Shown here one piece after another: positions 33,353 through 59,765 of a stretch of DNA of 64,000 nucleotides. The stretch is from NCBI GenBank assembly GCA_036873755.1, contig JAVTVY010036974.1, positions 92,702-156,701 on the forward strand, given 5' to 3'. Made by a program: the position numbers and the translations under genes. Below the pieces are notes generated by a model. That model ran no database searches. It saw only the letters and a list, made by a program, of their open reading frames with translations, and was not told the origin of the DNA. The stretch is from Hanleya hanleyi (Eukaryota; Mollusca; Polyplacophora; Lepidopleurida; Hanleyidae). Every line of letters begins with the position of its first letter. The first letter of the stretch is position 1.

Positions 33353-33366
33353 CAGTGGGACCTGAC

Positions 33367-35590: not shown

Positions 35591-35599
35591 AGCTTGGGT

Positions 35600-36022: not shown

Positions 36023-36024
36023 TA

Positions 36025-36065: not shown

Positions 36066-36133
36066 TGATGATGGGGATAATTAAAAGAATTAATACCACA
36101 GCATGACTGACTTTGTCTCTGTTCTCTGAGGTA

Positions 36134-36141
36134 GATAAAAA
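36134..36141 (+). promoter_or_regulatory. TATA-like box of the core-protein gene (E2)
   Basis: GATAAAAA, 35-44 bp before the candidate ATGs at 36169 and 36178. Confidence 0.4.
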
Positions 36142-36168
36142 GGGCAGAGTTGTGGGTTCTAGCATTAG

Positions 36169-37263: not shown

Positions 37264-37311
37264 CCGCGACGAACACGACGACGGACACAACCGCCCAAGG
37301 CCTGGAACACC

Positions 37312-37319
37312 TATTAAAA
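37312..37319 (+). promoter_or_regulatory. TATA-like box of the late cassette (E2)
   Basis: TATTAAAA, 39 bp before the minor capsid ATG. No further box precedes the three downstream genes. Confidence 0.5.
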
Positions 37320-37350
37320 CCAACAACAGCAGCAGGACAGCTCAGTCGCC

Positions 37351-38126
37351 ATGTTTTACCTCACCCTACCCAGTAACAGTTCGCTGGATGTGTTTCCTGA
37401 CAACACCTTGGCCAAGTACGTCACCCAGTTACCGCAACCGTTGCATTTACCTGGACGATGGGAATGTGGCCTCGTGTATATCCAATACCCTTACTCGTGG
37501 TACAACGTGCGAGCCAATGAAGTGTGGTACGAGGTGACCTACGAACGAAAAGGCACCCGACTCACCCTCCCCGAAGGCCAATACGATACTCCCAAGGAGT
37601 TCATGCAGGGGCTGACAAGACTGTTGCATTATAAGGCTCTACGGGAGGTCATGAATGTTTCAAAACCCATCAAAACCTTTCCCTTCAAGAATCACGTGGA
37701 CTTCGATTACAACGCACACAACGACAAGGCACAGATCATCCTCACCGCCAACGTGAGTGTCGTACTGAGTCCTATCCTACAGCAAATGCTGGGTGTCGAT
37801 CTACAGACGTTCGCTGGTCCCTCCGCCCACCAAGGCCAGATCCCGATGGATATGAAGTCGGGTATGTCGGGTAAGTCGGGTATGTTGAACGACAACCACA
37901 TCGTGGGCGATATCAACACACCTCTGTTACGGGTGGTCCCCATTAAAAAGACGTATGGAGATCAAATCACCCACAGTTTCACCCACATGCTCTACGACAA
38001 ACCGACATCAACACTATCACGGTGGATATAAGAGATGACACGGGACGACTGGTGGCATTCGAACGAGGAAAAGTGGTGCTGACGCTTCATTTTCGACAAG
38101 CACGTGCTCCCCACTTTGTACAATGA
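37351..38126 (+). pseudogene. E2 minor capsid (penton-like) protein, 8-nt deletion
   Basis: Same protein as 2921-3709. Open to about 37994, where 8 nt are missing relative to E1; the homologous C-terminus continues in another frame (DINTITVDIRDD to FHFRQARAPHFV) to the TGA at 38124-38126. That stop overlaps the next ATG as ATGA. A SGMSGKSGM stretch at about 37856-37885 differs from E1. Confidence 0.78.
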
Positions 38127-38527
38127 AGGCGTCTTACGAGTGCGATGCACGCAGCTATATGGACTATTATGCCCAACAGGCCGGAGGTGGCCTTCCGGTC
38201 TTTAGTGGTGCGCGCATGCAACCAGGGCACGGGCTGAGAAACATACTCGGGAGCGTCGTCAAAACGTTCCTGCCCTTGGTGACGCGTGGGGTGAAAGCAA
38301 TCGGCAAACAAGCGGTACGCAGTGGACTGCAACTCGCCGGTGATGTCTTGGGGGGTACGGCATCCAAAGAAGCCTTGAAACGGCGGGCCAAAGAAGGGGG
38401 AGGCGTCTTGGTGGCCAAAGCACAACGCACCGTAGGGAATAAAAGACCTGCACCACCGAGACCACGCACCAGTCGACGACCGACCCAGCGACGACGCACA
38501 TCGAAGACCCAGGATATCTTTTCTTAA
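38123..38527 (+). CDS. pX-like basic virion protein, E2, intact
   Basis: 134 residues. The N-terminus has YYAQQAGGGLPVFSGARMQ (about 15-33) with a glycine-rich turn; the middle segment TFLPLVTRGVKAIGKQAVRSGLQ (about 52-74) looks amphipathic; the C-terminus is Arg/Pro-rich. Conserved in Polintons and adintoviruses next to the capsid gene and compared in that literature to adenovirus pX/mu-like proteins, so a genome-condensing or membrane-active role is inferred. Start overlaps the previous stop (ATGA); stop lies 2 nt before the major capsid ATG. Confidence 0.75.
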   Translation: MKASYECDARSYMDYYAQQAGGGLPVFSGARMQPGHGLRNILGSVVKTFLPLVTRGVKAIGKQAVRSGLQLAGDVLGGTASKEALKRRAKEGGGVLVAKAQRTVGNKRPAPPRPRTSRRPTQRRRTSKTQDIFS

Positions 38528-38529
38528 AC

Positions 38530-39839
38530 ATGTCCTTAATCCATGCAGAGTCCTGCCCCTCCACCAACAGTGAATTTGATTTGTGGACCGTCCCGCCCAC
38601 ACATACCAGTGCCGAACAAGGATTATGGGTGGAGCATCTCCCGCTCTCCAGCATCAACGAAACAGGACCCATCGAGTTCACCATCAGTAATGCGGATACG
38701 GCCTATGTGGATTTAGCCCATACATACTTGTATGTGAAAGCCAAGGTCGTCAATGGGGATGGCTCCAGAATCGTCGACCAAGCAACGGTGGGCCCGACGA
38801 ATCTCTGGTTGCAATCTATGTTTCAACAGGTGGATATATTTCTCAGCGAACAAACTCATCAGTGACTCGACCAACACGTACCCCTATCGAGCCTACATCG
38901 AGACGCTGTTGTCGTATGGACGAGAGGCTAAAAAATCTCAGCTGACAGCCGCTTTATTCTACCAGGACACAGCCGAGCACATGGGCGAACGACAATGCGG
39001 GATATAACAAACGGAAGGCTTTGACCGCGAATGGTGTCTCGGTGGATATCATGGGTCGACTGCACGCAGACATGTTCATGCAAGACCGGTACCTCTTGAA
39101 CAAGATCCCCATCAAAATCCGACTGATACGGGCGCCTCCGTCCTTCGCCTAGATGGCCACTAACGTAGAGGGGCATGCTGCTGACTATAAGATTGTCATC
39201 CAAGACGCAGTCCTGTATGTCCGAAAAGTGAAACCGAATCCAGCCGTTCAACTGGGACACCTCAAAGCCTTGGAAACAAAACCAGCCCAGTACCCTATCC
39301 GGCGTGTGCAAACCAAAGTGTTCTCTGTGTCGGCTGGAAATATGAGCGCCAACAAAGAAAACCTGTTCCTGGGGGAACTACCTAAGCGATTGATCCTGGC
39401 CTGTGTGGAAAATACCAGTTTCAGCGGTGCCTACCCAGAGAACCCGTTTGACTTTAAACATTTCGGCATCAATTTGGTGGCCCTGCATGTGGATGGACAA
39501 CAGGTCCCAGCTACGGCCTTAACACCGAACTTTGGGCGCGCAAATTTCATTCGAGCCTATCGGAGCCTGTTTACAGCCACCGGTCAAATCAACCAGGACG
39601 AAGGGAATATGACCAGTCGGGAGGACTACGCGAACTGATACACGTTGTTCTGTTTCGATCTGACCCCCACCTTAGAGAACGACCATCAGCTTGCCCTCGC
39701 CAAGCAAGGCAATTTACGGTTGGAAATCCACTTTGCGCGAGCCCTCCGGAGCACCGTCAATGTGATCTGCTACGCCGAGTTTGACAACATCATTCAAGTG
39801 GACAAGGCACGCAACGTCCTGTGTGACTTTGCCACCTAA
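38530..39839 (+). pseudogene. E2 major capsid protein, several breaks
   Basis: Double-jelly-roll capsid homologue beginning MSLIHAESCPSTNSEFDLW. Frame disturbances lie near 38850 and 38985; nonsense codons at 39150-39152 (TAG where E1 has TTG) and 39637-39639 (TGA where E1 has GGA). The C-terminus ends CDFAT-stop at 39837-39839, 1 nt before the protease ATG, giving the native end of the gene that E1 lost. Nothing beyond these breaks distinguishes it from E1. Confidence 0.85.
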
Positions 39840-39840
39840 C

Positions 39841-40314
39841 ATGGATACAGACCAGATAACCATCGTGCTGGAGAATGACCCAGGGACACGTATGGTCTTT
39901 CAAGGGGTGTTCGCCCGAGATGTGTTCCCATTAGACCGTATGTATCGTGCTGCGTACGTTCTCAACACGGACCCCATGGATCGGCCCGGTGAACATTGGG
40001 TGGGCGTGTACTTGACAGAACAGCTGGGCGAATACTTTGACCCGTACGGCCTGCCACCCCTCCATCCCGATTTAACAGACTGCATGGATCAAGGCACAGA
40101 GACGTGGTGTTGGAACAGTCAAACGTTGCAAAGCCTGACCAGTAGCGTGTGCGGACAATATTGCTTGTTTTACCTGTACCATCGATGCCGGGGAAGAACC
40201 TTATCTACCATCGTACAGATGTTTGACGAGTACCCCAAGGCCGAGGACCGCGATGTACTCGTATATGACTGGGCCGCCCATCATTTCAATGTACAAGCCC
40301 CGTTCTGGGCTTAA
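39841..40314 (+). CDS. adenain-type cysteine protease, E2, intact
   Basis: 157 residues, close to the usual adenain length (about 200, Polinton forms shorter). Candidate catalytic residues in the family order: His52 (GEHWVGVYL), Asp67 (YFDPYG), Gln97 (LQSLTSS) and Cys104 (SVCGQYCLFYL), with Cys108 also present. The enzyme is expected to cleave capsid-protein precursors during virion maturation. The ATG is 1 nt after the major capsid stop, so translation by reinitiation on one late mRNA is likely. E1 has lost all but the last eight codons. Confidence 0.9.
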   Translation: MDTDQITIVLENDPGTRMVFQGVFARDVFPLDRMYRAAYVLNTDPMDRPGEHWVGVYLTEQLGEYFDPYGLPPLHPDLTDCMDQGTETWCWNSQTLQSLTSSVCGQYCLFYLYHRCRGRTLSTIVQMFDEYPKAEDRDVLVYDWAAHHFNVQAPFWA

Positions 40315-40430
40315 ATTCTTTCAATGTACAAGCCCCCTGTTCTGGGCTTAAGTTTACAAGCCCCCTGTTCTGGGCTCAAGTTCTGTCGATTTCAATGTAC
40401 AAGCCCCCTTTTCTGGGCTTCAGTTTTCAC
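40296..40430 (+). repeat. four AAGCCC/GGGCTT hairpins after the protease gene
   Basis: Four copies of ACAAGCCCC-TTCTGGGCTT-type inverted repeats, the first inside the last codons of the protease (AAGCCCCGTTCTGGGCTTAA), spaced about 20-45 nt apart. E1 keeps two. Possible 3'-end processing or transcription-termination structures; inferred. Confidence 0.65.
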
Positions 40431-40457
40431 GTGGTTGTTCTCACGTTGTTATTGTTG

Positions 40458-40463
40458 AATAAA
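40458..40463 (+). terminator. polyadenylation signal of the E2 late cassette
   Basis: AATAAA, 144 nt after the protease stop and just after the hairpins. No other AATAAA lies within the cassette's 3' end. Confidence 0.6.
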
Positions 40464-40880
40464 AAACAAACTGAGATCTCACCAAACAAAAAAACCTGTC
40501 TTGTGTGTTTTCTATATGAGCATAATGCATGAAGACTATAACAGACATGTGGGGATTCGGTCAAACTGGCTTTGAACACCGTGGAGAAAGTAGCCAATCA
40601 GTGACCTAGGATGGGGCCAAATGTAACCCATCAATGTCCAGAAAACATTACACGGATGTACAAGAACCCGGATGCAGGCGCGGACGTAGGCGAAAGCATC
40701 CTAGTATCCGGATGTAAGCGCAGACGTGAGCCAAATTCTAGTACCCGTCCATTGGTTCTTTTATCGATCGCTCATTGGCTCTTTTTCTCGGCCGCTGATT
40801 GGTCCAAATGGAACTGCCGATCCTTCCCAGGTTAATTTACAATCCCCTTTTTGTGTTCAAGCTCTGAATATCGATGCCGC
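40464..40880 (+). other. E2 3' flank
   Basis: Matches E1 950-1139 inverted for the first part. Contains two copies of a GGATG-AGGCGCAGACGT-type segment (40672 and 40710) and three CATTGG/GATTGG-type CCAAT-like words (40752-40803). No gene. Confidence 0.5.
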
Positions 40881-41692
40881 AACATTGCCGAAAGGGAGAC
40901 CTTTGACCTTTTGACCTGGATGTGACCTTTGATCTTTTGACTCGACATTCACCCGCGCACTTCCGGTGATGCCGCGCAGGCGTGCGGCCGGATAATCCGC
41001 GCGCGCGCACTCGGCCGGATAACCCGCGCGCGCTGCGGCCGGGGTGGGCCGGGAAAAATCCCACAGACAGGTCAGTACATGCATTCCTATCATGTTCCCA
41101 GGGCACACCCCATTCACACAGACCCTCATACATACCCGGATGCAGGCGCAGACGTCAGAGAAATTCTGGCGGGGAAAAACCCACAGACAGGTCAGTACAT
41201 GTCCTATCATGTGCCCAGGTCACGCCCCATTCACCCAGACCGGAAGTGACGTCATACCCCTAATTTTACATGCACCCACCCATGACTGGATGCCCCATCA
41301 CGAATGCTTCACTTTGATACCTCACTCCATCGGACCATTAGTGGCCCACCTAGACCGCAAAACGTCTATTTCCACACCCTTTTCCCACAATTCCCTGTCT
41401 GCGCATGCGCAGAATGTCGAAAACGGACGACACACTACTCCAGGCGGTTGCTCCTTCACACATGCTTCACATGGATACCTCACTCGACTCCATCGGCCCA
41501 TTAGTGGCTCGCCTAGATCCCAAAACGTCTATTTCCATACCCTTTTCCCACAATTCCCTGTCTGCGCATGCGCAGAATGTGGACAACGGCCGAGACACTA
41601 CTCCAGGCGGTTGCTCCCTCACATATGCTTCACATTGATACTTCACTCGACTCCATCGGCCCATTAGTGGCTCGCCTAGGCCCCAGAACGCT
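40880..41692. repeat. E2 right terminal repeat with 181-bp tandem units
   Basis: GGTCA half-site cluster (40905-40945), CpG block (40970-41050), ETS-CRE composite at 41239-41254, then about two and a half 181-bp units (from 41320, 41490 and 41650) with GGCCCATTAGTGGC and GCGCATGCGCAG. Inverted relative to 32143-32760. Homology ends near 41692. Confidence 0.8.
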
Positions 41693-43529
41693 GGAGATAT
41701 AGCAGCTGGAGATGTAGATATATTTCGGGTACCCCCGGAAATATGGCTTTAAATGCTTGCTACCTACTACTAACGTGACTGCTCGTCAACATATTACTAT
41801 ACCAAGGTGATAATTTGTTGTTATCGATGAGAGGATCGGAAGTACGTATGAAGAGTTAGAAATATCAGAAACTTTCGAGCTTGCCCTCAGAATACCATAA
41901 AAGAATTACATGGCAATGTATAAAAGAATTTCATGGCAATGTATAAGTTATCCATTCCGTCATCATAGTAAAAGCATGATGAAACTAGGGCTGGAATGGC
42001 CTCTCAACACTCTTACAGTTCGGGGAATAAGTCAGTGAGTGGGCTCCTAAGGTCGCTCTCAACAATTTCTCTGCCATATCACGACGATCCAGACACATCA
42101 TCCTGACACGAGGCCAACCGGTCTGTGATCTATCCACTTCGTGCTGAGCGTAAAGCGATCAAGATACAAATCATATTGTTTTAGTCTTTGGTATGACTCG
42201 ACCCGGGATCGACCCCGAGACCTGTGGCTTGCGAGGCGTGCGATCTGTATATTAAGAACTTCAGCTACCAATAAAACCGGTATCTCACAAAAGCCTAACC
42301 TGTCTCAGTAATGTCAAAAGCGGGACCTCGTCTAGTTGACAAAACACCCCACTCTCACACTTGAAAACTCCGAAACATTCGACTCCTAGAAAATATATCG
42401 TATTTCCGATTTCCGTTTGAAAAGTAGTAGCAGTACTAAGTATACAGTTTGACCAGATTACCACCGGTTTAATTTGAACGTTATTTACATCAAATCCAAA
42501 TGACGAAGATGAAGATACCCACTGGAATCCCCCTGAGTTACTTCCCTTTGTAATAACTAAAAAAAACTGCAGATTTTTACAGCATCTGATGAGCAATTAA
42601 ACTCTAAAGGTAAAGGCTTCAAAGTTTCAAAATACAAATAACACAGAGGTGGTGAAAAACAACGTCACAGTCTGATTACGTTTACGTCGTATTTTATCGT
42701 GTCGACTGACATTACCTCATGATATTACGCATTGGCATTCTAAACAGAATAACCTTCGACGTCGGACGCTGTTTTGAAATGTTCATCCAAATGAACCTAG
42801 AGACACTAACACAAGCCAAGGTACACCTGCACTTGCCCAGAGACAAGGAACAGAAAGATTGGGAAGATGATGTATATGCTAAAATCAACAATTAAACAAA
42901 CAACCAGAAGGACATGTGGGAAGCGCACCAAAACAACAGAGAGGAAGCTGTTCAACCAAAAACAACAGAGACGAAGCTGTTCTCTCAACCTTTCAACCAA
43001 TCGGGTTCCATGTGTGTTTAAGCAGGATGAGATGCTGGTAATGATGAGAGACGCATTCTTCGAAGGAAAGCCTCTGAACACAGCGTAATTTGACGACACG
43101 TTCAAAGAGCAAATCTGTACCACTTACCTTGAGATCAAAGAAAACCCTTGCTCACTCAATGATTATCCATACAACGGCGACGTCATTTTGCCAGAAGTGG
43201 TTTGTGCCGTCAGCTATTTCCAACCAGGACTGCACCTGAACCCAACAACATTTTCCATAACAGCTTAAACATTCCGGTAAACAACTCACAAGAGTGATAT
43301 GAAAATTTGCTAAATATTGGGCTACCTTAAAGGCGAAGTTCAGCACAAAAAAAAACTGGCAAACCATACTACAGTCAACAGTCATCCTACCGGTCCTTTA
43401 CTCTCGCTTGCATGGAGAAAATTGAAAAAATAAAATAGCCTGGAACACATCGGAGAGACGAAAAACAGAGGCTTATAAGGAGCTCCATCCTGCATGTAGC
43501 ACAAATAGCCCTCAGTGCCTTATACAACA
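41693..43529. other. no gene; one tRNA-like or SINE fragment
   Basis: On minus, about 42285-42170, the sequence GGTAGCTGAAG...CGCACGCCTCGCAAGCC...GGTCTCGGGGTCGATCCCG resembles a tRNA-derived SINE head (A- and B-box-like), but the cloverleaf does not close convincingly. The remainder, including the frame at 42806-43123, is not recognised. Confidence 0.3.
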
Positions 43530-47470: not shown

Positions 47471-47498
47471 TTTGTATTACCAGACTACAAATACGGTT

Positions 47499-48340
47499 AG
47501 TAGTATGTCCACGGCATTTAAACTCATATTGACCTACTTATTTGTTCCCCCGGGTAAAATTTAAGGGGGAACTTTGTGAGGCTCTCTACGGGTGGGGTAT
47601 GTGGCACAGCTCTTGGTGGGAACTTTTCAACATCCGGAAAGTACACATAAACTGATGACGTCATCACGTTTATTCTTCCGCGGTGATGCGGTCTGGCGGC
47701 GATGCGGTCGCGGGAAAAAGCTTCCGCGGAGAAAAAGTAGTCCCTAGACTTCAAATACGCTGCATGGTCCGATTGGGTCGAGTGAGGTATCAAAGTGAAG
47801 CATTCGTGAAGGGGCATCCAGTCATGGGTGGGTGCATGTAAAATTAGGATTTTTTCCCGAAACTATAAAAAGCGGAATACGGACTTTACCCCTAAAATAG
47901 GGGAAAACACCTATCAACCCTAGCCAAAAGGGCTAATATCGGTCCCCGGGCTTATTGGAACCTGCCTATCCAGTCAATGGGTGCATGTAAAATTAGGATT
48001 TTTTCCCGAAACTATAAAAAGCGGAATACGGACTTTACCCCTAAAATAGGGGAAAACCTCTATCACCTCTAGCCAAAAGGGCTAATATTGGTCCCCGGGC
48101 TTATCGGGGCCTGCCTATCAAGTCAATGGGGTGGGTGCATGTAAAATTAGGAATTTTTTTTCGAAACTATAGAAAGCGGAATACGGACTTTACCCCTATC
48201 AACCCTAGCCAAAAGGGCTAATATCGGTCCCCGGGCTTATCGAGGCCTGCCTATCAAGTCAATGGGGTGAGTGCATGTAAAATTAGGATTGTTTCCCGAA
48301 ACTATAAAAAGCGGAACACGGACTTTACCCCTACAATAGG
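47499..48340. repeat. E3 left terminus and 160-bp subterminal units
   Basis: Outer 320 bp contain TGACGTCA (47656) and CCGCGG-GATGCGGTC blocks also seen in E1 (10670-10900). A 70-bp module (47770-47845) is nearly identical to E2 32330-32400. Then four units of about 150-165 bp (from 47830, 47990, 48140 and 48270), each with ACTATAAAAAGCGGAA-ACGGAC and CCCCGGGCTTAT. Confidence 0.85.
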
Positions 48341-49100
48341 GGTCTGTATTATACAATATACGGGAAAATGCCTGTATGGGGGGAGGGGAGATCACATTTT
48401 TGGGGGGGGGCTTTACTATGGCTTGTGGGGTCTCGTTTTTCTCGTCTCGCCAAGAAAATGGCAATGAAAAGGGTCCCAGAGGGAATCGGTGAAATTTTTG
48501 GGAAAAGTACCGGGTAGGCCTGTATATAGGCCTATAGGCTGGCTATATGGGGGTATAGGTTCAACCTGGGAAATTCACACACGTTCATTGTGATATGGGT
48601 TGCTTGGATTTGTTTTTCACGTCTAGTCATTTAGAACACGATGGGAAGGGTCTCGGTGCGCAACGGTGAAATTTTTGGAAAAGTACCATATAGCCCATAT
48701 AGTCCCATACTGGCTATATGGGGGTATAGGTTCAACCTTGGAAATTCACACACGTTCATTGTGATATGGGCTGTTTGGATTTGTTTTTCACGTCTCGTCA
48801 TTTAGAACACGATGGAAAGGGTCGCGGAGCGAAACGGTGAAATTTTTGGAAAAGTTCACCGAGGCCTGGGTAGGCCCATAGGCCTATACTGCATGGCTAT
48901 GGGGGAATAGGCCCATACGGAGTGGACGTTTTGGGGTCTAGGTGAGCCCCTAATGATCCTATGATGTCGTATGAGGTCTTATTTTGAAGCTCTCGTGGAG
49001 GAGCATCCCACTGGACTAATGGTTCGTCCGTTTTCAATAGTCTGCGCATGCGCAGTCTGGCCGTAGTATAGAAAGCGGGCATGTTGGGGGGTATGTGGGT
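48341..49100. repeat. E3 inner tandem repeats, left arm
   Basis: Three units with a period of about 171-178 bp (GGTGAAATTTTTGG at 48489, 48666 and 48837; CTATATGGGGGTATAGGTTCA; TTCACACACGTTCATTGTG). Followed by a block similar to the E2 181-bp unit (GTCTAGGTGAGCCCCTAATG, 48937) with TGCGCATGCGCA at 49043. Confidence 0.75.
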
Positions 49101-49690
49101 GTGTGTTTGGGGTAGAGATGGACCACTATGGGTCCGAATGGGTCGTGGAAGGTGTCAAAGTGAAGCTTGTGTGGGTTAGAGTCAGAATGGTGTGTTTTTA
49201 AGTGCAAGTCGCGTCAATCTGCGCATGCGCAGTTGGTTGTAGTAAGTACAGTGGTCATTTTGGGGCAGTACAGGAAGGTATTTGGGGTAGAGATGGACCA
49301 TCCTTGGTTCAATGCGTACAGGAAGGTGTCATGTTGTAGCTCTCGGGGTGTAGACTTCGATTTGAGGGATGTCCACGTCATCTGTGACGTCATCGATGAC
49401 GTCATCGGTACGAGTAGTAGCGAAAGTGGACATTTTGGGGCAGTGAAGGAAGGTATTTGGTGTAGAGAGGGACCATCCTTGGTCCGAATGCGTCGTGTGA
49501 GGTGTCATTTTGTAGCTCTTGGGGTGTAGACTCCGATTTGAGGGATGTTCACGTCATCTGTCACTTCACTGATGACGTCATCAGTACGAGTAGTAGCCAA
49601 AGTGGACATTTTGGGGCAGTGAAGGAAGGTATTTGGTGTAGAGAGGGACCATCCTTGGTCCGAATGCGTCGTATGAGGTGTCATCTTGTA
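49100..49690. promoter_or_regulatory. CRE-rich tandem repeats, left arm
   Basis: Three units of about 179 bp (from 49250, 49430 and 49610) with GGACATTTTGGGGCAGT, GGACCATCCTTGGTCC and TGACGTCA palindromes (49385 and 49397 in the best unit). Mirrored at 53573-54000 in the right arm. No gene. Enhancer-like character is inferred. Confidence 0.6.
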
Positions 49691-49880
49691 GCAACGCCCG
49701 CCAACGCCAAGCTTAACGTTTCAACGCCCTGGTGAAATAGCTCAGAAGTTCTGATTTTCTAGATATTCCATGGAATTGTCACTAATTCTTCGAAATGCAG
49801 ACGCCTTAACGCTCTAACATAACGCCTTGACGCCATGATATAGACCGGAGAGAGAACAACAACAACAACAAGGATGACAC
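49690..49880. repeat. AACGCC iteron module, left arm outer copy
   Basis: Repeated AACGCC/TAACGC words (49690-49730 and 49800-49835) around CCCTGGTGAAATAGCTCAGAAG. A paralogous module lies upstream of the C2H2 gene (50755-50920), and the right-arm copy is 53385-53560. Confidence 0.65.
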
Positions 49881-49941
49881 ATGAGAGAACAACAACAACA
49901 AGAAGTTTTTTCATATAGTTTATTTTCCCCAATGTTACATC

Positions 49942-49973
49942 ATACCCACGCTGGGGGAGCCGCGTTGGGTATG
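49942..49973 (-). repeat. conserved GGCTCCCCCAGC hairpin, E3 left arm
   Basis: Arms ATACCCA-ACGC / GCG-TGGGTAT around the core GGCTCCCCCA (minus). In the right arm the deletion junction (about 53262) removed the 5' stem and left the 3' half. Confidence 0.75.
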
Positions 49974-50123
49974 TTTACAACTCAAAAAGACTCTTGCCCA
50001 ATCAGAGGCCACCATTTGCATCTGTCATATTCGTTCCTGTCCGTTAGATGTATTCTTGTCCAATCAGAAGTCGCCATTTCAGAAAGTTCCATCTTCGGCC
50101 ATGTTCGCTCTGAAACGTTTATT

Positions 50124-50696
50124 CTAATCATCGCCGGACAGGCCTGGATATTCTTCGGGCAGCATGTCCTGAAACGGTTGTTTGCGCATTCTGATCGCAT
50201 TTTCCAGGGCCTCGGTGGGTGGTAGCCCCATAGCCTCTTCCAAGTGACGCTTGGTCTTCATGATGGACCTGTGCGTGGGATCGCCTTTCATTTCAAGCGG
50301 TAGTAAGGTATACTGTTCATAGATCGCCATGGCTGTTTTCCTGATGCGGGGGCGCATTTGGGTGTACGTCTGTTGTAAATTATCCTCTCCGGCGTCTTCG
50401 ATCGCTGCAGCGTAAGTATTGATAGCTGCTGTCACAATACGATCCCAGAAGGTAGGTTCTGCCTCACTTTCCACGGACGTATGCTGACTATCTGAGGTCA
50501 AGCTCTCCGTATCACTAGATAGACTCTCAGCAATCTCTGTTTCGGTATCAGTCGATACACTCTCAGCAGTCTCTGTATCAGCATCCGCCTCAACGGACTC
50601 CTCGGAGTCTTCAATCCCATGTATATTTTTCTGGTGTCGCATCATATCGTAATGTCTGGTGAACGTGCGTTCGCACTCAGAGCAAGTATAAGCCAT
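50124..50696 (-). CDS. C2H2 zinc-finger protein with acidic linker, E3
   Basis: 190 residues from ATG 50696, chosen because a TATAAAAG box lies at 50750-50743, about 50 bp upstream; the frame also opens further up. One C2H2 finger at residues about 4-27 (CSECERTF...HQKNIH), then a Ser/Glu/Thr-rich acidic region (about 30-85), then a helical domain ending PTHRSIMKTKRHLEEAMG...ALENAIRMRKQPFQDML. The finger resembles that of the neighbouring ATPase, and the C-terminal domain resembles that of the 101-residue protein next to it. DNA-binding role likely; target unknown. Confidence 0.7.
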   Translation of the reverse strand: MAYTCSECERTFTRHYDMMRHQKNIHGIEDSEESVEADADTETAESVSTDTETEIAESLSSDTESLTSDSQHTSVESEAEPTFWDRIVTAAINTYAAAIEDAGEDNLQQTYTQMRPRIRKTAMAIYEQYTLLPLEMKGDPTHRSIMKTKRHLEEAMGLPPTEALENAIRMRKQPFQDMLPEEYPGLSGDD

Positions 50697-50742
50697 GTTG
50701 ACGGTTGAACGTCGACTGTGCGTGTTTTTGGAAATACGCTCG

Positions 50743-50750
50743 CTTTTATA
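50743..50750 (-). promoter_or_regulatory. TATA box of the E3 C2H2 gene
   Basis: TATAAAAG on minus, about 50 bp before the ATG at 50696, the same spacing as in E1 and E2. Confidence 0.6.
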
Positions 50751-50754
50751 GACA

Positions 50755-50920
50755 GTAACGCCCATCAACGCTTAGCTTAACGCTTCAACACCCTGGTGAA
50801 TTAGCTCAGAAGCTCTGATTTCCATGGAATTGACACCAATTCATCGAAATGCAGTGACGCCCGTCAACGCCCGTCGTTACGCCGTAACGCCCGTCTCAAC
50901 GCCTTAACACATTTTCTTAA
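50755..50920. repeat. AACGCC iteron module, upstream of the C2H2 gene
   Basis: At least eight AACGCC/ACGCCC words (for example 50757-50795 and 50857-50910), including CGCCCGTCAACGCCCGTC. Similar words occur at the centre of E3 (52246-52266 and 52460-52485). Confidence 0.65.
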
Positions 50921-50924
50921 CCCT

Positions 50925-51230
50925 TTAACGTCGTTTAATGATGCGTTCGAACAAATGTTTCTTTTGTGCTATTGCTCTGACATACGCCGCTTTCCAGTTC
51001 ATGCCCGAGGTTTTCAACATGGACGCTGTTCTTTCAATTTCCATATGGACTGGGTCCTTATCCAACAATTTCATATGGGTCAGTAAGTCGGCATACCGCT
51101 GACGTAAAGCCCGTCGTAGTCTGGGTGCCAATCTGTTATGGGCTAAAATTGCGGCTTCCTCTTTCGTATACCCTTTGCGTTGAAACTTGTTTTCTGTGAC
51201 CTCCAACTTTCTTTGAACAAATCCTTCCAT
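50925..51230 (-). CDS. 101-residue helical basic protein, E3
   Basis: Begins MEGFVQRKLEV. Lys/Arg-rich and helical (LAPRLRRALRQRYADLL). The C-terminal 50 residues (DPVHMEIERTASMLKTSGMNWKAAYVRAIAQ...KHLFERII) match the C-terminal domain of the C2H2 protein in pattern: DPxH, I..T...L, G, A...AI...K..F. It overlaps the extended ATPase frame by about 88 nt in another frame. Function unknown; a shared dimerisation or DNA-bound assembly domain is a guess. Confidence 0.6.
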   Translation of the reverse strand: MEGFVQRKLEVTENKFQRKGYTKEEAAILAHNRLAPRLRRALRQRYADLLTHMKLLDKDPVHMEIERTASMLKTSGMNWKAAYVRAIAQKKHLFERIIKRR

Positions 51231-52104
51231 AGCCTCGAGTTCACATTATGTTCTTCAACCTCGGGTTGGTCCTTCACGGTTGGGTGATATTCCGGGACTG
51301 GTGGTATGAAGAAGGCCCGCTGTACGGGGGTGGGTTGCTGCTTCACCAAATGTGGACTCGGTGGATGGTGTAGGGGCTGTGGTGATCCCTCGCCGGGTAG
51401 CAGGTGGGTCGTCAGCCGGCGATCTTTGGGGGTATGGGCTTTTAAATCTAAGAACAGTAGCCGTACGGACGACTTGTCGCTTCTTGAAACGCCTGCATGA
51501 AATGGTCGATGTTCTGAGGATAAATTCGACTACCAAACACACGAATTTGTGCTCTGTCGATGGGGTTGGAGAACAACACAAAGTATTGGCAGTTCGAGGC
51601 AATATCTCTGGACGCCTTGCCTTGAGGAAAGAGATTCTGGGTCAAATAGATGACGGACAGATTGCGATGATGGGACCCTTTGGTGAATAGGTCGGCGATT
51701 TTCGAATTGTCCTTGGCCGCATTCATCAGATCATCCAGCACTACCACGTTGGTCTGCTCGGGGTCAAAGTAATACGGTTCGTCTATGTCGTGAGGAATCC
51801 CTGGGACGAAACTCACATTCTGTAATCGTGTAGTTTCGTAGGCGGGCTGCCATTGGCTATAACACCAAACAACACGTGTCGGAGCTGGGGTTGCCACACT
51901 TTCCTCTAAGAACTTCATCACCCAGGACGTCTTTCCACATGCCGTAGGGCCACTCACCGTCATCGTATAGGGATGCTCTACTGCACTTGTTGGACCTATA
52001 GCGGGACTCGGCGGTGTCTCTTGGTTGTGTTTGCCTTGAATGTGCCTGAGCACACTATCGCGACGAGAGAAGGTTCTCTGACAGAACGTACACGTACACG
52101 ACAT
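51143..52104 (-). pseudogene. C2H2-zinc-finger/packaging-ATPase fusion, E3 left arm, one frameshift
   Basis: N-terminal C2H2 finger at residues about 4-26 (CTFCQRTF...HIQGKH), then the A32/FtsK-like ATPase: Walker A GPTACGKTS near residue 52, WCYSQWQ, Walker B VVVLDDLM near residue 125, LFTKGSHHRN, and sensor YLTQNLF. It would drive genome packaging into capsids. After SRPYGY (about 51455) a one-base shift is needed to reach the typical C-terminal LFLDLKAHTPKD...LLPGE, after which that frame runs a further 80 codons to 51143. If the shift is real the native enzyme is truncated near residue 218. Starts 50 nt after a TATAAG box. The ATPase is clearly a different lineage from the E1/E2 remnant. 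Confidence 0.8.
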
Positions 52105-52154
52105 GTTGATCTGTCGACCAATACATAAGGACTGATGAGGGACACATGTTCATT

Positions 52155-52345
52155 CTTATATGTACAGACACCACCACCAACACCACCACCACACACTACC
52201 ACACACACACACACACCACCACCACCACCACCGCCACCACAGGGCGTTGACGGGCGTCAACGCCCAGCGGTGGTGGTGGGAGCTCCCGTGTGGCAGAGTT
52301 CTTGGATCGGAGCTCTTGGAGCTCAAAACCGGAACTGACCTTTGA
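52155..52345. repeat. E3 centre, left: CAC/ACC microsatellite and TATA
   Basis: TATAAG at 52160-52155 (minus) serves the left ATPase. Bases 52166-52242 are CACCAC/ACACAC microsatellite, and 52244-52266 holds a GGGCGTTGACGGGCGTCAACGCCC palindrome-like word. All are mirrored on the other side. Confidence 0.7.
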
Positions 52346-52380
52346 CCCCTGCGCGCGCTAACAATACCGGATACAGGGGT
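52346..52380. promoter_or_regulatory. E3 axis of symmetry with facing GGTCA sites
   Basis: The two arms meet as TGACCTTTGACCCCTG, then a 22-nt unpaired spacer (52352-52373, CGCGCGCTAACAATACCGGA core), then CAGGGGTCAAAGGTCA. Facing DR1-like sites bracket the axis between the divergent ATPase promoters. Confidence 0.7.
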
Positions 52381-52381
52381 C

Positions 52382-52573
52382 AAAGGTCAGTTCCGGTTTT
52401 GAGCTCCAAGAGCTCCGATCCAAGAACTCTGCCACACGGGAGCTCCCACCACCACCACTGGGCGTTGACGCCCGTCAACGCTCGGTGGTGGCGGTGGTGG
52501 TGGTGGTGGTGGTGTGTGTGTGTGTGTGGTAGTGTGTGGTGGTGGTGTTGGTGGTGGTGTCTGTACATATAAG
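52382..52573. repeat. E3 centre, right: mirrored microsatellite and TATA
   Basis: Inverted copy of 52155-52345, with GTG/GGT microsatellite and TATAAG at 52568-52573 for the right ATPase (start 52624). Confidence 0.7.
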
Positions 52574-52623
52574 AATGAACATGTGTCCCTCATCAGTCCT
52601 TATGTATTGGTCGACAGATCAAC

Positions 52624-53442
52624 ATGTCGTGTACATGTACGTTCTGTCAGAGAACATTCTCTCGTCGCGATAGTATGCTCAGGCACATTCAAGGCAAACA
52701 CAACCAAGAGACACCGCCGAGTCCCGCTATAGGTCCAACAAGTGCAGTAGAGCATCCCTATACGATGACGGTGAGCGGCTTTACGGCATGTGGAAAGACG
52801 TCCTGGGTAATGAAGTTCTTAGAGGAAGGTGTGGCAACCCCAGCTCCGACACGTGTTGTTTGGTGTTATAGCCAATGGCAGCCCGCCTACGAAACTACGC
52901 GATTACAGAATGTGAGTTTCGTCCCAGGGATTCCTCACGACATAGACGAACCGTATTACTTTGACCCCGAGCAGACCAACGTGGTAGTGCTAGATGATCT
53001 GATGAGTGCGGCAGAGGACAATTCGAAAATCGCCGACCTATTCACCAAAGGGTCCCATCATCGCAATCTGTCCGTCATCTATTTGACCCAGAATCTCTTT
53101 CCTCAAGGGAAGGCGTCCAGAGATATTGCCTTGAACTGCCAATACTTTGTGTTGTTCTCCAACCCCATCGACAGAGCACAAATTCGTGTGTTTGGTAGTC
53201 GAATTTATCCTCAGAACATCGACCATTTCATGCAGGCGTTTCAAGAAGCGACAAGTCGTCCGCGGCTCCCCCAGCGTGGGTATGATGTAACATTGGGGAA
53301 AATAAACTATATGAAAAAACTTCTTGTTGTTGTTGTTCTCTCATGTGTCATCCTTGTTGTTGTTGTTGTTGTTCTCTCTCCGGTCTATATCATGGCGTCA
53401 AGGCGTTATGTTAGAGCGTTAAGGCGTAACTACGAGCGTTGA
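52624..53442 (+). CDS. C2H2-ATPase, E3 right arm, chimeric C-terminus
   Basis: Same protein as the left copy with the finger, Walker A (GFTACGKTS, so G-x4-GKT is kept), Walker B VVVLDDLM and YLTQNLF all present in one open frame to residue about 213 (SRP). There the 1.5-kb deletion joins it to the hairpin and repeat region, adding about 59 foreign codons that include LLVVVVLSCVILVVVVVVLS encoded by a GTT microsatellite, an accidental hydrophobic span. The C-terminal GYLLFLDLK...FPGE-equivalent part is missing. Nucleotide binding may survive; packaging function is doubtful. Confidence 0.8.
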   Translation: MSCTCTFCQRTFSRRDSMLRHIQGKHNQETPPSPAIGPTSAVEHPYTMTVSGFTACGKTSWVMKFLEEGVATPAPTRVVWCYSQWQPAYETTRLQNVSFVPGIPHDIDEPYYFDPEQTNVVVLDDLMSAAEDNSKIADLFTKGSHHRNLSVIYLTQNLFPQGKASRDIALNCQYFVLFSNPIDRAQIRVFGSRIYPQNIDHFMQAFQEATSRPRLPQRGYDVTLGKINYMKKLLVVVVLSCVILVVVVVVLSPVYIMASRRYVRALRRNYER

Positions 53443-53560
53443 CGGGCGTCACTGCATTTCGAAGAATTAGTGACAATTCCATGGAATATCTAGAAAATCA
53501 GAACTTCTGAGCTATTTCACCAGGGCGTTGAAGCGTTAAGCTTGGCGTTGGCGGGCGTTG
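53385..53560. repeat. AACGCC iteron module, right arm
   Basis: Inverted counterpart of 49690-49880: GGCGTTATGTTAGAGCGTTAAGGCG and GGCGTTGAAGCGTTAAGC words around CTTCTGAGCTATTTCACC. Confidence 0.65.
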
Positions 53561-54340
53561 CTACAAGATGACACCTCATACGACGCATTCGGACCAAGGA
53601 TGGTCCCTCTCTACATCAAATACCTTCCTTCACTGCCCCAAAATGTCCACTTTGGCTACTACTCGTACTGATGACGTCCCCAGTGAAGTGACAGATGACG
53701 TGAACATCCCTCAAATCGGAGTCTACACCCCAAGAGCTACAAAATGACACCTCACACGACGCATTCGGACCAAGGATGGTCCCTCTCTATACCAAATACC
53801 TTCCTTCACTGCCCCAAAATGTCCACTTTCGCTACTACTCGTACCGATGACGTCACCGATGACGTCACAGATGGCGTGGACATCCCTCAAATCGAAGTCT
53901 ACACCCCGAGAGCTACAACATGACACCTTCCTGTACGCATTGAACCAAGGATGGTCCATCTCTACCCCAAATACCTTCCTGTACTGCCCCAAAATGACCA
54001 CTGTACTTACTACAACCAACTGCGCATGCGCAGATTGACGCGACTTGCACTTAAAAACACACCATTCTGACTCTAACCCACACAAGCTTCACTTTGACAC
54101 CTTCCACGACCCATTCGGACCCATAGTGGTCCATCTCTACCCCAAACACACACCCACATACCCCCCAACATGCCCGCTTTCTATACTTCGGGCAGACTGC
54201 GCAGAACCATTAGTCCAGTGGGATGCTCCTCCACGAGAGCTTCAAAATAAGACCTCATACGACATCATAGGATCATTAGGGGCTCACCTAGACCCCAAAA
54301 CGTCCACTCCGTATGGGCCTATACCCCCATAGCCATGCAG
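53561..54340. repeat. E3 right-arm CRE-rich repeats and NRF1-like site
   Basis: Mirror of 48930-49690: three 179-bp units, TGACGTCA pair near 53850-53870, TGCGCATGCGCA at 54021-54032. Confidence 0.7.
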
Positions 54341-55907
54341 TATAGGCCTATGGGCCTACCCAGGCCTCGGTGAACTTTTCCAAAAATTTCACCGTTTCGC
54401 TCCGCGACCCTTCCCATCGTGTTCTAAATGACGAGACGTGAAAAACAAATCCAAACAGCCCATATCACAATGAACGTGTGTGAATTTCCAAGGTTGAACC
54501 TATACCCCCATATAGCCAGTATGGGACTATATGGGCTATATGGTACTTTTCCAAAAATGTCACCGTTGCGCTCCGAGACCCTTCCCATCGTGTTCTAAAT
54601 GACTAGACGTGAAAAACAAATCCAAGCAACCCATATCACAATGAACGTGTGTGAATTTCCCAGGTTGAACCTATACCCCCATATAGCCAGCCTATAGGCC
54701 TGTATACAGGCCTACCCGGTACTTTTCCCCAAAATTTCACCGATTCGCTCCGGGACCCTTCCCATTGTCATTTTCTTGGCGAGACGAGAAAAACGAGACC
54801 CCACAAGCCATAGTAAAGCCCCCCCCCAAAAAATTTGATCTCCCCTCCCCCCATACAGGCATTTTCCCTTATATTGTATAATAGACCCCTATTGTAGGGG
54901 TAAAGTCCGTGTTCCGCTTTTTACAGTTTCGGGAAACAATCCTAATTTTACATGCACTCACCCCATTGACTTGATAGGCAGGCCTCGATAAGCCCGGGGA
55001 CCAATATTAGCCCTTTTGGCTAGAGGTGATAGAGGTTTTCCCCTATTTTAGGGGTAAAGTCCGTATTCCGCTTTTTATAGTTTCGGGAAAAAATCCTAAT
55101 TTTACATGCACCCACCCCATTGACTGGATAGGCAGGCCCCGATAAGCCCGGGGACCAATATTAGCCCTTTTGGCTAGGGTTGATAGGGATGTTTCTCCTA
55201 TTTTAGGGGTAAAGTCCGTATTCCGCTTTTTATAGTTTCGAAAAAAAAATCCTAATTTTACATGCACCCACCCCATTGACTTGATAGGCAGGCCCCGATA
55301 AGCCCGGGGACCAATATTAGCCCTTTTGGCTAGAGGTGATAGAGGTTTTCCCCTATTTTAGGGGTAAAGTCCGTATTCCGCTTTTTATAGTTTCGGGAAA
55401 AAATCCTAATTTTACATGCACCCACCCCATTGACTGGATAGGCAGGTCCCAATAAGCCCGGGGACCGATATTAGCCCTTTTGGCTAGGGTTGATAGGTGT
55501 TTTCCCCTATTTTAGGGATAAAGTCCGTGTTCCGCTTTTTATAGTTTCGGGAAAAATCCTAATTTTACATGCACCCACCCATGACTGGATGCCCCTTCAC
55601 GAATGCTTCACTTTGATACCTCACTCGACCCAATCGGACCATGCAGCGTATTTGAAGTCTAGGGACTACTTTTTCTCCGCGGAAGCTTTTTCCCGCGACC
55701 GCATCACCGCCAGAACGCATCACCGCGGAAGAATAATCGTGATGACGTCATCAGTTTATGTGTACTTTCCGCATGTTGAAAAGTTCCCACCAAGAGCTCT
55801 GCCACATACCCCACCCGTAGAGAGCCTCACAAAGTTCCCCCTTAAATTTTACCCGGGGGAACAAATAAGTAGGTCAATATGAGTTTAAATGCCGTGGACA
55901 TACTACT
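54341..55907. repeat. E3 right terminal region
   Basis: Mirror of 47499-48930: three units with CACGTGTGTGAATTTCC-like segments, then five TATA-bearing units of about 160 bp (54890-55570; the left arm has four), the 70-bp E2-shared module (55560-55640), the CCGCGG/GATGCGG blocks (55660-55735) and the terminus. Confidence 0.85.
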
Positions 55908-55913
55908 ACGGTT

Positions 55914-56335
55914 TGTGTTCCGTTATGAGGACTTGAAAAGAATTTCGCTGTCAAATAATCAATTATTGCTGCTCTCTCTATTAATCCTTATTATTGTCGG
56001 TCTACCTACAAGACTAGGCTAGTCTACTTCACTGATAGAAGCCTAGCAACACAAAAGGTTATTCTAGGTATTATTATTGCCCCGTCGATGGAGCAATATA
56101 AGTAATGAAACGAAAGAATGTACATTAGAACCACATAATAAATCACAGCATCGATTTTGACAATAATTATAACCTATGATGCAAATTTAGGAGGAAACAC
56201 ACATATCAGTCTAAACTGCCAAGTTCAAGAAGACGAATCAGGAAATGTACGCGAATAAATCATGTATATAGCTTTCATCCTAAAGTTAAAATCGGCATAT
56301 ATTAAGGGCGAGAGAGAGAATTAGATTTAACGTCT
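55914..56335. other. no recognisable feature
   Basis: Unique-looking flank of E3; no gene seen. Confidence 0.4.
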
Positions 56336-56685
56336 CGTTCAGCAATATGTCAGCTATTACAGAGACGAGTGTGAGGTTGAGAATCGTTCAGCAATATGTC
56401 AGCTATTACAGAGACGTGTGTGAGGTTGAGAATCGTTCAGCAATATGTCAGCTATTACAGAGACGTGTGTGAGGTTGAGAATCGTTCAGCAATATGTCAG
56501 CTATTACAGAGACGAGTGTGAGGTTGAGAATCGTTCAGCAATATGTCAGCTATTACAGAGACGAGTGTGAGGTTGAGAATCGTTCAGCAATATGTCAGCT
56601 ATTACAGAGACGAGTGTGAGGTTGAGAATCGTTCAGCAATATGTCAGTTATTACAGAGAGACGAGTGTGAGGTTGAGAAGGCCCT
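56336..56685. repeat. 49-bp minisatellite, seven copies
   Basis: Unit CGTTCAGCAATATGTCAGCT...GAGGTTGAGAAT starting at 56336, with repeats every 49 bp (AGCAATATGT at 56341, 56390, 56439 and so on to 56635). Copies differ by a G/T at GACGAGTG and one AG insertion. Confidence 0.95.
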
Positions 56686-58438
56686 GAGATCAAACATATC
56701 CACGTAACGCTAATAACATGAGTTTAACGATCATGGTTACGATTTATAGAGATATTCTAATGGTTGTAATCCATACAAGTATGGCCAGCTGGCTTGAGTA
56801 ACTGAATTATCAACTTCATGATCATTATCATAAACAGCAGCATCACTAACATCACCAGTCATCATAACTGGGAAGCTTGACAAGCTCGCCTTATGAAGAA
56901 TGCAGACCAATATATTAAGGTGTATCGATAGATTGAATCATTAATAAGAATGATATAGAAATACATATACAGGTACGCGTAACCCACTTTTTGCGAGGAA
57001 GTATTTTATCTGTTGACATTTTGAGGTAGTCCCCAATTGACGTCATACAGTTGGAACTTAGACGCTGCTATTATTGTTAAGTTTTATACGGTAAAGTTTT
57101 GCAGGATTACAGTGAGTGAGTGAGTGAGTGAGTGAGTGAGTACGTGTATAATTTTCCGTTACTTTCAATGATTTAGCCTACATGTGACAGGGCAGTACCA
57201 TTAATGCCAATGCCAATTTCTTATAATGCTGCCTCCATGCAGACATGATAACCTATCCAGCCGCATTATCCTTACAGAGGGTCAACCAGTCATTCATCTA
57301 TATTTGAGCGCTAAGAGAGAAAGTTCCATTTTTTTGGTATGATTGACAACTGTTTCTCATCCACTTTTCATTTGTTTTCTCACAGACTGATCTCCCATCG
57401 TTGGTGCTTTGATCTGCAGGTTGGAAATGAGCAAGATAATGTAAAACATCAATTTTCCTCTCATCCCAGCATGCTTATTCATGGAGAAACCCAGTGATTT
57501 AAAAAAAAATAGCTTTCATAAAATTTTCATTGATTGTATTTTAAATTGCTCGATTTTGGAAAAAATGACATCGTATGAAATCATCTCATCGCGTAACAAC
57601 AACAACAACAACAACAACAGGTGCATTTTCAATGAACCTGCGTTCATAAGTAGGTTAAATATGAACATTTTAAAAACGATACTCTTTATTTTTTATAACT
57701 TTTTTCAGTTTCACCAGCAGAAACTATCAATATACAGAAGTATACACAATAAACTACTGGAGATATACGAGGCTGAATGCAAATGATTACAGCCCCTGTT
57801 TTAGCCTAACAGCAGCTCTTGCCAAATATTTCTACAGTAGTTAAAGCGCCAGTCACACTTTCACTAAGTAGGCCTATATACCCTCGGTAACTGAAAATCG
57901 ATGGGTTTCGATCATGGATCAGGGGTTGACTCCTCCGGCACTTTGCTGTAATATGCCAGTGGTCTCCAGATAGTTAAGGAGAGCTTCGGTGATCTTCTAT
58001 CTTTCTGTTGGGTATGGGTCTTTCCCATATAATAACCAATGAAATCCATATGAGAACACCCTGTGGGAAAGTTCATCCCATATACGTATACGAGATCAGC
58101 GCGTGACGCGCACTAGCCAATCAGAAGTAATGCCGGACTACTTTCGTATTTTCATGAATGAAATGTGTAGGTCAAATATACTACGCCTATTTTTTAGTAA
58201 CATTTGCTATCGTCTGCTTTACACAATTATGAGAATACCGATAATTGATGGATTAATATGTCGATGGACAGAGACATCAACTTGAATTTCTTGAAACCTG
58301 GCGATAGTGTGTGGGTAAAGAAATCCAGCCAGAAGGCAGTTGGAACATTCGTAAAACGGCACAAACCACTGGGAACATTTACTTTGTTCCGTGTCACGAT
58401 GGATTCAGGCCAAATGATTATTATTATTATTATTAAAA
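56686..58438. other. no gene; two microsatellites
   Basis: GTGA/AGTG repeat at 57108-57140 and AAC repeat at 57596-57620. A frame at 58258-58464 (NFLKPGDSVWVKKSSQ) hints at a mobile-element fragment but ends in an ATT microsatellite; not assigned. Confidence 0.4.
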
Positions 58439-59250
58439 TTACGAGCCAAACAAATCCAACTTAAGAAGGATGGAAAGGGCAACAAACCGTGTAAGTCAGA
58501 GCCGATCACCGACGATGAAATCTCCAAGTTGTACGAAACCGGCCATCAGCTCGGACGAAGTACCCCAGACAGCGTTTTAAATACTCTGTGGCTCAACAAC
58601 ACCACCCATTTTGGCCTCCGTGCCGTGAAGGAACATCGTCAATTGCAGTGGGGAGATGTTACACTCGAGACAGATTCTGTAGGTCGAGAATTTCTCGAGT
58701 ATTCGTGTGAACGGCAGACCAAGACCCGTACTGGCGCAAACCCGCGAGACACTCGCACTGTAAATCCTCGAATTTATTCCACTCAGTTTGACCGCTGTCC
58801 CGTGACCCTGTACAAGTTTTACGCAGAGAAACGTCCAGAATATACCAAGAGTGCAGATTCTCCGTTTTACATTGCACCAAAATGTAAAAATCCACGTGGA
58901 AATGAAGTATGGTACAAAAATCAGTGCGTTGGCGAAAATAAAATTGCCGCCATTATGAGATCCATGAAAACGGCAGCCGGCCTCTGGAACAGAAGAAAAT
59001 CACCAACACGAGTGCGCGAAAATATGTTGCACAGAAACTTGTCAACAGTAAAGTTCCTCCCACAGAAGTCATGCAGATAACAGGCCACAAAAACGTCCAG
59101 TCTATCCTGAATTATTCTTCTCTTTCGGAGCAGCGACAAATGGAAATTTGTGGCATTATCGATACACCAACACCAACGGATGCCATCTGCCTATCGTCCT
59201 CGCAGCGTGTCTCTACATGCAGTTCAGCCTCGGCCGCTGCCACCTCCCTC
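58439..59250 (+). pseudogene. Crypton-like (DUF3504) tyrosine recombinase, frameshifted
   Basis: Frame 58439-58985 contains STPDSVLNTLWLNNTTHFGLR (first catalytic-Arg region) and QWGDVTL, then FYIAPK. A shift near 58984 leads to KKITNTSARKY...PPTEVMQITGHKNVQSILNY, the second box (Arg, His of GHK, and the nucleophile-type Tyr in LNYS). In the family the residue before SARK is usually His; here it is Thr. The family derives from Crypton elements and is common in marine invertebrates. Frameshift and the His change indicate a dead copy. Confidence 0.7.
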
Positions 59251-59765
59251 AGTTTCGCAGGTGAAGAATCCCATGACCTCCAAACATATTCATCCATGGG
59301 TCCCTTGTTTAGTGGTTGTGCTATTTCAGGTGGAACAATAAATATCAATTTCTCCCTACCTCACTTTCCGACTGGCGAAAAACGTCCTAGACTGTCGAGT
59401 GATTAAACTCTGGAAACCCGCGCTTTCAGCTTCAACTTTCAAGTTCAGTTCATTTCAGTCACGAGTTACATTGTGGACTTGACTCTTTCGTCAAACTGTA
59501 ATGCTTTTACTCCTTGGCCAAGGCGAACTGAATTTATTCAACTGCTAAATTCGATAAATTTACTGTTTATAATGATTTCTAAACTGGGAACTCTCTCTTG
59601 CTGCGTAATAATCTTGCTGCGTAATAAACCTTGTGCCTGTTCACCCTACGTAATGTATATAACTGCGCAGTAAAATTGTAAACAAACCGTCAGCTGAAAA
59701 TCTTTGTTGTGCTTTGTTGGCAATATTTTCGGCTAAAAAAATTATATGGGAAAAAGAATCCCAAA
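59251..59765. other. no recognisable feature
   Basis: Serine-rich tail of the recombinase frame continues to about 59406; nothing else supported. Confidence 0.35.

Follow-up and report, generated by a model that had tools for sequence, protein, structure and literature searches.

The stretch of Hanleya hanleyi DNA analysed here, 64,000 nt in length and referred to as the window (assembly GCA_036873755.1, contig JAVTVY010036974.1, forward strand, positions 92,702-156,701), carries at 47493-55913 an inserted element with Polinton-type ends and inverted arms. The explanation that we consider probable is that this element is one copy of a high-copy, palindromic, non-autonomous family of Polinton satellites, which are self-complementary (snap-back) and are mobilised in trans. 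There are many hundreds of such mirror-image elements in the genome; they seem to be parasites of virus-like Polintons, with few genes apart from the two copies of that for a packaging ATPase. The unit of the family would consist of a terminus, tandem arrays, a second zinc-finger gene and a zinc-finger ATPase gene, with two inverted units meeting at a short asymmetric spacer.

An initial annotation of the window had described ACGGTT on both sides of the element, AG...CT ends, and inverted arms meeting at a 22-nt spacer, all of which is confirmed (Table 1). The ends are AGTAGTA, the AGT-repeat type found in Polintons/Mavericks, and the 6-bp target-site duplication is likewise that of Polintons/Mavericks. 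Excluding the spacer, 59 of the 3331 aligned positions (1.8%) are mismatched between the two arms, distributed as 40/2444 in the terminal part, 15/639 in the ATPase frame and 4/248 between the ATPase and the spacer. There are also 10 insertions or deletions (indels) between the arms, the largest being 1503 bp, followed by 174 bp (approximately one tandem-repeat unit), 24 bp and 23 bp. The 1503-bp segment is absent from the right arm, and the inverted repeats do not, as had been claimed, fill the whole element. Past the ATPase domain the left arm runs, with frames broken, into sequence resembling homologous ATPases, which also continue there; the right arm at the same point skips to sequence closer to its own end. 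Because the left arm continues as the homologous ATPases do, the difference is due to a deletion in the right arm and not to an insertion in the left. The ancestor of the window element was therefore more symmetric, and this deletion is why the axis lies near 52363, away from the midpoint of the element.

The genome (2.48 Gb in 52793 contigs) was searched using the inner part of the arm, and the best 40 of 4018 first-look candidates were scored. These lie in 37 contigs, many of them as inverted pairs. Twenty regions of up to 10 kb were fetched for comparison of their structure. An inverted second arm is present, whole or with deletions, in 14 of the 20, and in nine of those 14 the ATPase stretch is represented by 500 bases or more in each arm. 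Four regions reach the end of a contig with the second arm already begun, and two (L034 and L048) are arranged otherwise. In L047 there is one gene arm, with little of the second arm beyond the terminus, and inverted ends of approximately 840 bp. Both AGTAGTA ends were found in 5 of the 12 regions checked for ends. The 6-bp duplication is exact in three of the six elements with both ends (ACGGTT in the window, AATGTA in L037 and GACGTG in L047), and one of its six bases differs in L036, L038 and L049. L037 is the cleanest case of insertion. Its left flank matches the window at 39754-40328 and its right flank at 40323-41018, and since these matches overlap in the six bases 40323-40328, this is the empty site of L037. 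L037 and L049 form a subfamily with other ends (AGTAGTAGGAAAAGG), from which much of the gene stretch is gone, and with a different ATPase C-terminus. In L034 and L048, a half centre links the arms to fragments of Polintons of the element 2 type (Table 1), namely a terminal side in L034 and, by eye, part of a capsid gene in L048; these joints suggest recombination at the centre.

The centre of the element was used as a 66-base query, for which the best 40 of 1100 candidates were scored. It matches end to end in all 40 places, the window included. The other 39 matches are 73-77 bases long, which indicates that the window copy has lost some 10 bases of its spacer. Exact patterns of the centre were also searched, with 15 fixed bases of arm on each side and 5-35 free bases between them. 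They match 772 times genome-wide (a number that haplotype duplicates may inflate), and not once with the reversed patterns used as controls. Further copies sharing the centre and having independent 6-bp duplications, which the initial annotation had proposed looking for, thus exist: there are these 772 centres, and the duplications of L037 and L047 are exact. Given arms of kilobase length, and 772 matches to the centre against none for the control, a chance origin is excluded. At one arm position the 772 matches consist of 481 T:T, 277 G:G and 14 mixed centres, as compared to approximately 359 mixed centres expected if the arms were independent. Among the pattern matches shown, the spacer is the common one in 15 of 17 and another in two, and one further match has almost no spacer. 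Of the 27 contigs in which centres were read, the common spacer is present in 18 (among them the window, with its shortened form), a second type, AAAGGTTTCC (spacer B), in five, a third in one (C3601), and a half centre joined to other sequence in three. GCGCGC repeats flank both the common spacer and spacer B, and could have seeded a fold-back.

The relationship between the two arms of an element was analysed in a set of 41 arms from 27 contigs, matches covering fewer than 520 of 865 positions having been dropped. Of the 37 contigs with hits, 27 were taken further. The arm tree is weakly resolved, the changes being mostly private, and arm distances by themselves do not separate the arms of one element from those of other elements. 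Shared variants were therefore used for the comparison. The differences between the arms of L043 and L050 (13% and 33% with chosen centres, L050 containing masked bases) were not used. In the ATPase stretch, 7 sites have variants carried by five or more arms, and over 14 pairs the arms of an element agree there in 18 of 21 cases. In the adjacent gene stretch, 36 sites have variants carried by four or more arms, and agreement is found in 54 of 70 cases over 10 pairs, one of which is the tail-to-tail locus C49185. Random pairing gives mean agreements of 0.21 for the ATPase and 0.16 for the gene stretch, with maxima of 0.52 and 0.51; none of 2000 permutations reaches the observed agreement. Rarer variants are shared between arms in 25 of 78 cases (ATPase) and 22 of 56 cases (gene stretch), which is still above random pairing. 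Old variants thus agree and private ones differ, and it follows that in most copies the arms were near-identical when inserted and diverged afterwards. In most of the inserted molecules one template had served for both arms; L033 and L035 are among the exceptions.

The initial annotation was right in giving the element only ATPase and zinc-finger genes and no integrase of its own. The two ATPase genes point outward from the centre, and the frame is broken in both arms. The ATPase, which is of the A32/FtsK packaging type found in Polintons/Mavericks, has 363 homologues at E<=0.001, the best-scoring being 50% identical. Of 23 aligned members, 21 match Pox_A32 (PF04665) and 8 match Adeno_IVa2; the right-arm ATPase of the window itself matches neither at E<=0.001. 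The structure prediction for the ATPase is poor (mean predicted local distance difference test score, pLDDT, 55.3), and a search of solved structures listed 21 sequences, by name zinc-finger proteins. No relatives were found among viral contigs (IMG/VR) with the single ATPase, the ATPase alignment or a Polinton PolB as query. For the second C2H2 protein, none of 94 homologue candidates reaches E<=0.001. Among open reading frames (ORFs) of at least 120 aa within 47499-55907, inspection by eye, with Pfam applied to the three main ORFs, recognised no integrase, capsid or protease, and no ORF resembling PolB (for which the element was not searched with a profile). Rfam gave no match at gathering scores. 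The arms contain three types of tandem array. Repeats related to the outermost type, with an identity of approximately 70-80%, are found at both ends of element 1. A mirror-image pair of GGGGTCAAAGGTCA adjoins the spacer at 52336-52349 and 52376-52389. We take this motif to resemble the DR1 site of nuclear receptors, and together with the outward ATPase genes the pair may form a two-way promoter.

Table 1 Features of the window, in window coordinates.
Feature	Position	Strand	Remarks
Left target-site duplication	47493-47498		ACGGTT
Left terminus	47499-47534	+	AGTAGTATG...; same as right terminus over 60 bases
Left arm	47499-52351	+	4853 nt
149-bp tandem array	47828-48198	+	Left arm; 2.4 units
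171-bp tandem array	48464-48855	+	Left arm
176-bp tandem array	49250-49692	+	Left arm
Left-arm-only segment	49963-51465		1503 bp; 3' part of ATPase gene (broken frames) and second zinc-finger gene
Second C2H2 protein	50124-50768	-	Left arm only; C-terminal region resembles that of long ATPases (by eye)
Left-arm ATPase ORF	51448-52104	-	C2H2 finger and A32-type packaging ATPase; Walker A GPTACGKT; stopped early by frameshift
Central asymmetric spacer	52352-52373		22 nt; by eye a shortened form of the family's common spacer
Right arm	52374-55907	-	3534 nt; without counterpart of 49963-51465
Right-arm ATPase ORF	52624-53442	+	Same ATPase, cut by deletion; 59-codon hydrophobic run-on tail; Walker A GFTACGKT
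176-bp tandem array	53560-54002	-	Right arm
171-bp tandem array	54374-54765	-	Right arm
154-bp tandem array	54886-55590	-	Right arm; 4.6 units
Right terminus	55872-55907	-	Inverted, ...CATACTACT; element ends at 55907
Right target-site duplication	55908-55913		ACGGTT
Element 1, Polinton relative	1-~9206	-	Integrase-chromodomain frame (Pfam); capsid and protease by eye
Element 2, Polinton relative	32142-41771	+	Integrase-chromodomain (Pfam); capsid and protease by eye
Empty site of palindromic copy L037	40323-40328		AATGTA; inside element 2

Selection was tested on the codons of the ATPase across the set of 41 arms. The variants that occur a single time comprise 39 synonymous and 118 others, which fits the neutral expectation (0.256 synonymous), as compared to 22 and 22 for variants occurring more than once (Fisher P 0.0026). 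Six nonsense variants are among those seen once and none among those seen more often. Some of the shared variants may be confined to the arm pair of a single element, and these are expected to weaken the contrast. All 213 codons are open in 25 of the 41 arms, and a 401-aa ATPase frame is present in 6 of the 20 fetched regions. The shared variants show purifying selection, and because of this and the persistence of open frames, the ATPase gene was probably working during the spread of the family. Between the two arms of the window there are 8 synonymous and 7 other differences in the ATPase (P 0.02), to which little weight is given, there being only 15 changes.

How such an element might be propagated can be outlined as follows. 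The protein-primed polymerase of a helper Polinton would displace one strand of the palindrome, which would snap back into a full-length hairpin duplex with one origin end, and copying through the hairpin loop would restore the palindrome. Both arms would then descend from one duplex, so that concerted evolution of the arms is expected, and such snap-back replication predicts a loop that persists. The helper integrase would recognise the AGTAGTA ends, and the packaging ATPase of the element would get its DNA into helper capsids, where the zinc finger of the ATPase could give a preference for satellite DNA. It is possible, and we put this forward as a tentative generalisation, that there is a class of self-complementary, palindromic satellites of virus-like elements of animals that snap back on helper PolB, use the helper integrase, take over helper capsids with their own zinc-finger ATPase, reach hundreds of copies, and have their arms kept alike by their mode of replication.

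Candidate helpers are present in the window and elsewhere in the genome. Elements 1 and 2 are 91-94% identical over long matches. Pfam named only the integrase and chromodomain in them, the names capsid, protease and PX being given by eye, and no PolB-like frame was recognised in either. Element 2 has a putative end at 41771; its left end was not found. Elsewhere, terminal-repeat inverted pairs lie 9.4-10.3 kb apart in four cases and 12.1 kb in one, a spacing that suggests that a PolB-less Polinton type of approximately 10 kb may be common. Element 2 is a possible kind of helper. The earlier proposal that the palindrome was integrated by the integrase of another element is a fair one, in that the end of the palindrome and the putative end of element 2 have 25 of 36 bases in common; this similarity is suggestive only, since a place at 11208 scores the same. 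The element 2 integrase has at least 92% identity at all 112 scored places (the best 112 of 31829 candidates, its own included) and is stop-free at 101 of them; the best-scoring homologue comes from the chiton Liolophura sinensis (65%). A Polinton PolB query matches all 38 scored places (the best 38 of 8818 candidates), 25 of which are stop-free. Next to one PolB, 2.3 kb of sequence contain an ATPase 61% identical to that of the palindrome and, by eye, an integrase frame, both on the strand opposite to PolB, this integrase being 41% identical to that of element 2 over 230 residues. The ATPases of elements 1 and 2, at approximately 5090-5506 (-) and 35591-36025 (+), are without their N-terminal half. 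These truncations raised the idea of a multipartite Polinton, in which elements with integrase and capsid but without ATPase would be supplied with ATPase by the palindromes. This was not supported: none of 39 other scored copies (the best of 1908 candidates) matches across the truncation junction of element 1, and 15 of the 39 show both sides of the junction with extra sequence between, for which reason the loss looks private to elements 1 and 2.

Several observations weigh against a snap-back satellite mobilised in trans. The evidence is that of a genome assembly, in which no hairpin or episomal molecule was seen. Mobilisation in trans is suggested by the weak end similarity described above, the packaging role of the ATPase by its protein family only, and the selection on the ATPase could have acted in an ancestor that was not yet palindromic. 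The arm tree has only four well-supported sister pairs among the 14 pairs of arms, and contains two forks, also well supported, that unite arms of different elements (C30072 with C8588, and C16864 with C29418). In 5 of the 14 pairs no rare variant is common to both arms. L033 and L035 have the same asymmetric arm junction and different outer ends, implying that arms are not always remade, and a single homogenisation event with inheritance afterwards would be enough for the T:T/G:G result at one site. The poor pairing of arms and the shared junction of these two insertions favour the main rival, as does the dominance of one spacer (18 of 27 contigs, the window included). This holds that there was one founding palindrome, inherited as an ordinary Polinton duplex with occasional gene conversion between arms and no hairpin phase. 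We think it unlikely, as the agreement of old variants extends beyond a single site to 43 common sites, structural variants occur in both arms (in L037 and, by eye, in the shorter centre-proximal part of the class to which the window copy belongs), and there are other centres, namely spacer B in five contigs and the third spacer in C3601. The suggestion in the initial annotation of a head-to-head dimer has to be modified similarly, in that this is a multi-copy family and not a single dimer, and the palindrome can be inherited as such (L033, L035). Hairpin priming may still have given rise to it; neither a hairpin molecule nor a non-palindromic parent with this spacer was seen.

Purifying selection also bears on whether the element is simply a dead deletion derivative, a very large counterpart of a miniature inverted-repeat transposable element, in which the ATPase is passenger DNA and only the ends matter. 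Both ATPase copies of the window are broken, and L047, with its one gene arm and inverted ends of some 840 bp, has an exact duplication, as would be expected in that case. We regard it as improbable in the face of the 401-aa frame kept in 6 of 20 regions and of shared ATPase variants that are relatively poor in non-synonymous changes and include no stops. Inverted-repeat expansion in place, in which an ordinary Polinton inserts and repair between its terminal repeats copies one half over the other, would preserve the target duplication, and such a mechanism is discussed for Galileo in PMC3573991. For the family it is contradicted by a single centre motif common to hundreds of loci, by the palindrome of L037 set against its empty site, and by the rare variants, which are mostly in one arm (53 of 78 and 34 of 56 cases), so that conversion after insertion was limited. 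It is thus very improbable here, except that it could account for odd copies, L034 and L048 among them. Fold-backs are a known class of assembly and sequencing artefact. As an account of this element such an artefact is scarcely credible, given that the arms are separated by 59 mismatches and 10 indels and each have private mutations, that the target duplication is exact, and that there are independent insertions with duplications of their own.

The element can be classed as Polinton-derived and non-autonomous, working like a snap-back satellite. With Polintons/Mavericks, as presented in PMC8097293, it has in common AGT-type ends, 6-bp duplications, terminal inverted repeats and a packaging ATPase. 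The vertebrate Mavericks in that source have (AGT)2//(ACT)2 ends, 6-bp duplications and inverted repeats of 46-1447 bp. In contrast, the inverted repeats here make up most of the element, which is 8.4 kb rather than approximately 17 kb long and in which no PolB, integrase, capsid or protease frame was recognised. The snap-back defective genomes of adeno-associated virus (AAV), in the accessible part of PMC8235507, are similar in being self-complementary half-genomes or head-to-head dimers, in having symmetric and asymmetric forms, and in depending on others for replication. They differ in being parvoviral and in that their formation is put down to end joining, and no transposing family is described in that part of the source. 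The Foldback-type elements Galileo (PMC3573991) and Tm1 (PMC3169594), as far as the available parts of these papers go, also have long, internally repetitive inverted repeats that extend up to nearly the whole element, the longest in Galileo being in non-autonomous copies. However, they have transposases of the P superfamily (Galileo) and of Mutator type (Tm1), the Galileo repeats reach approximately 1.3 kb, and the Tm1 duplications are 9 bp; the element has instead Polinton ends and duplications of 6 bp. That inverted repeats of Polintons can expand is mentioned in PMC3573991, which cites others for it. No report of palindromic Polintons was found in the literature searched, which covered titles and the starts of abstracts, most subscription papers and the repeat databases lying outside the search. 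Phage satellites of the phage-inducible chromosomal island (PICI) type are bacterial, and redirect packaging by means of other proteins. They would be alike in their working, with no homology claimed, if the ATPase of the element redirects packaging to satellite DNA.

These elements provide a genomic record of how Polinton DNA may behave outside the chromosome. The concerted evolution of their arms is suggestive of single strands that anneal to themselves, which is what replication by strand displacement would predict. They also suggest that Polintons have gene-bearing satellites, as AAV and phages do, and that the gene for packaging was retained while those for replication, integration and capsid were not. 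Multi-kilobase palindromes exist in hundreds of copies in an animal genome.

Some further features of the window were noted. Just outside the element, at 56335-56679, is a 49-bp tandem array of seven near-identical units. At 22270-31307, four copies of a repeat of approximately 680 bp make up part of two direct 2.1-kb blocks, which lie around pieces that by eye are gypsy-like, an odd double long terminal repeat arrangement. Finally, 58418-59406 is an ORF with a DUF3504 domain (PF12012), which we take to be related to Crypton-type recombinases.

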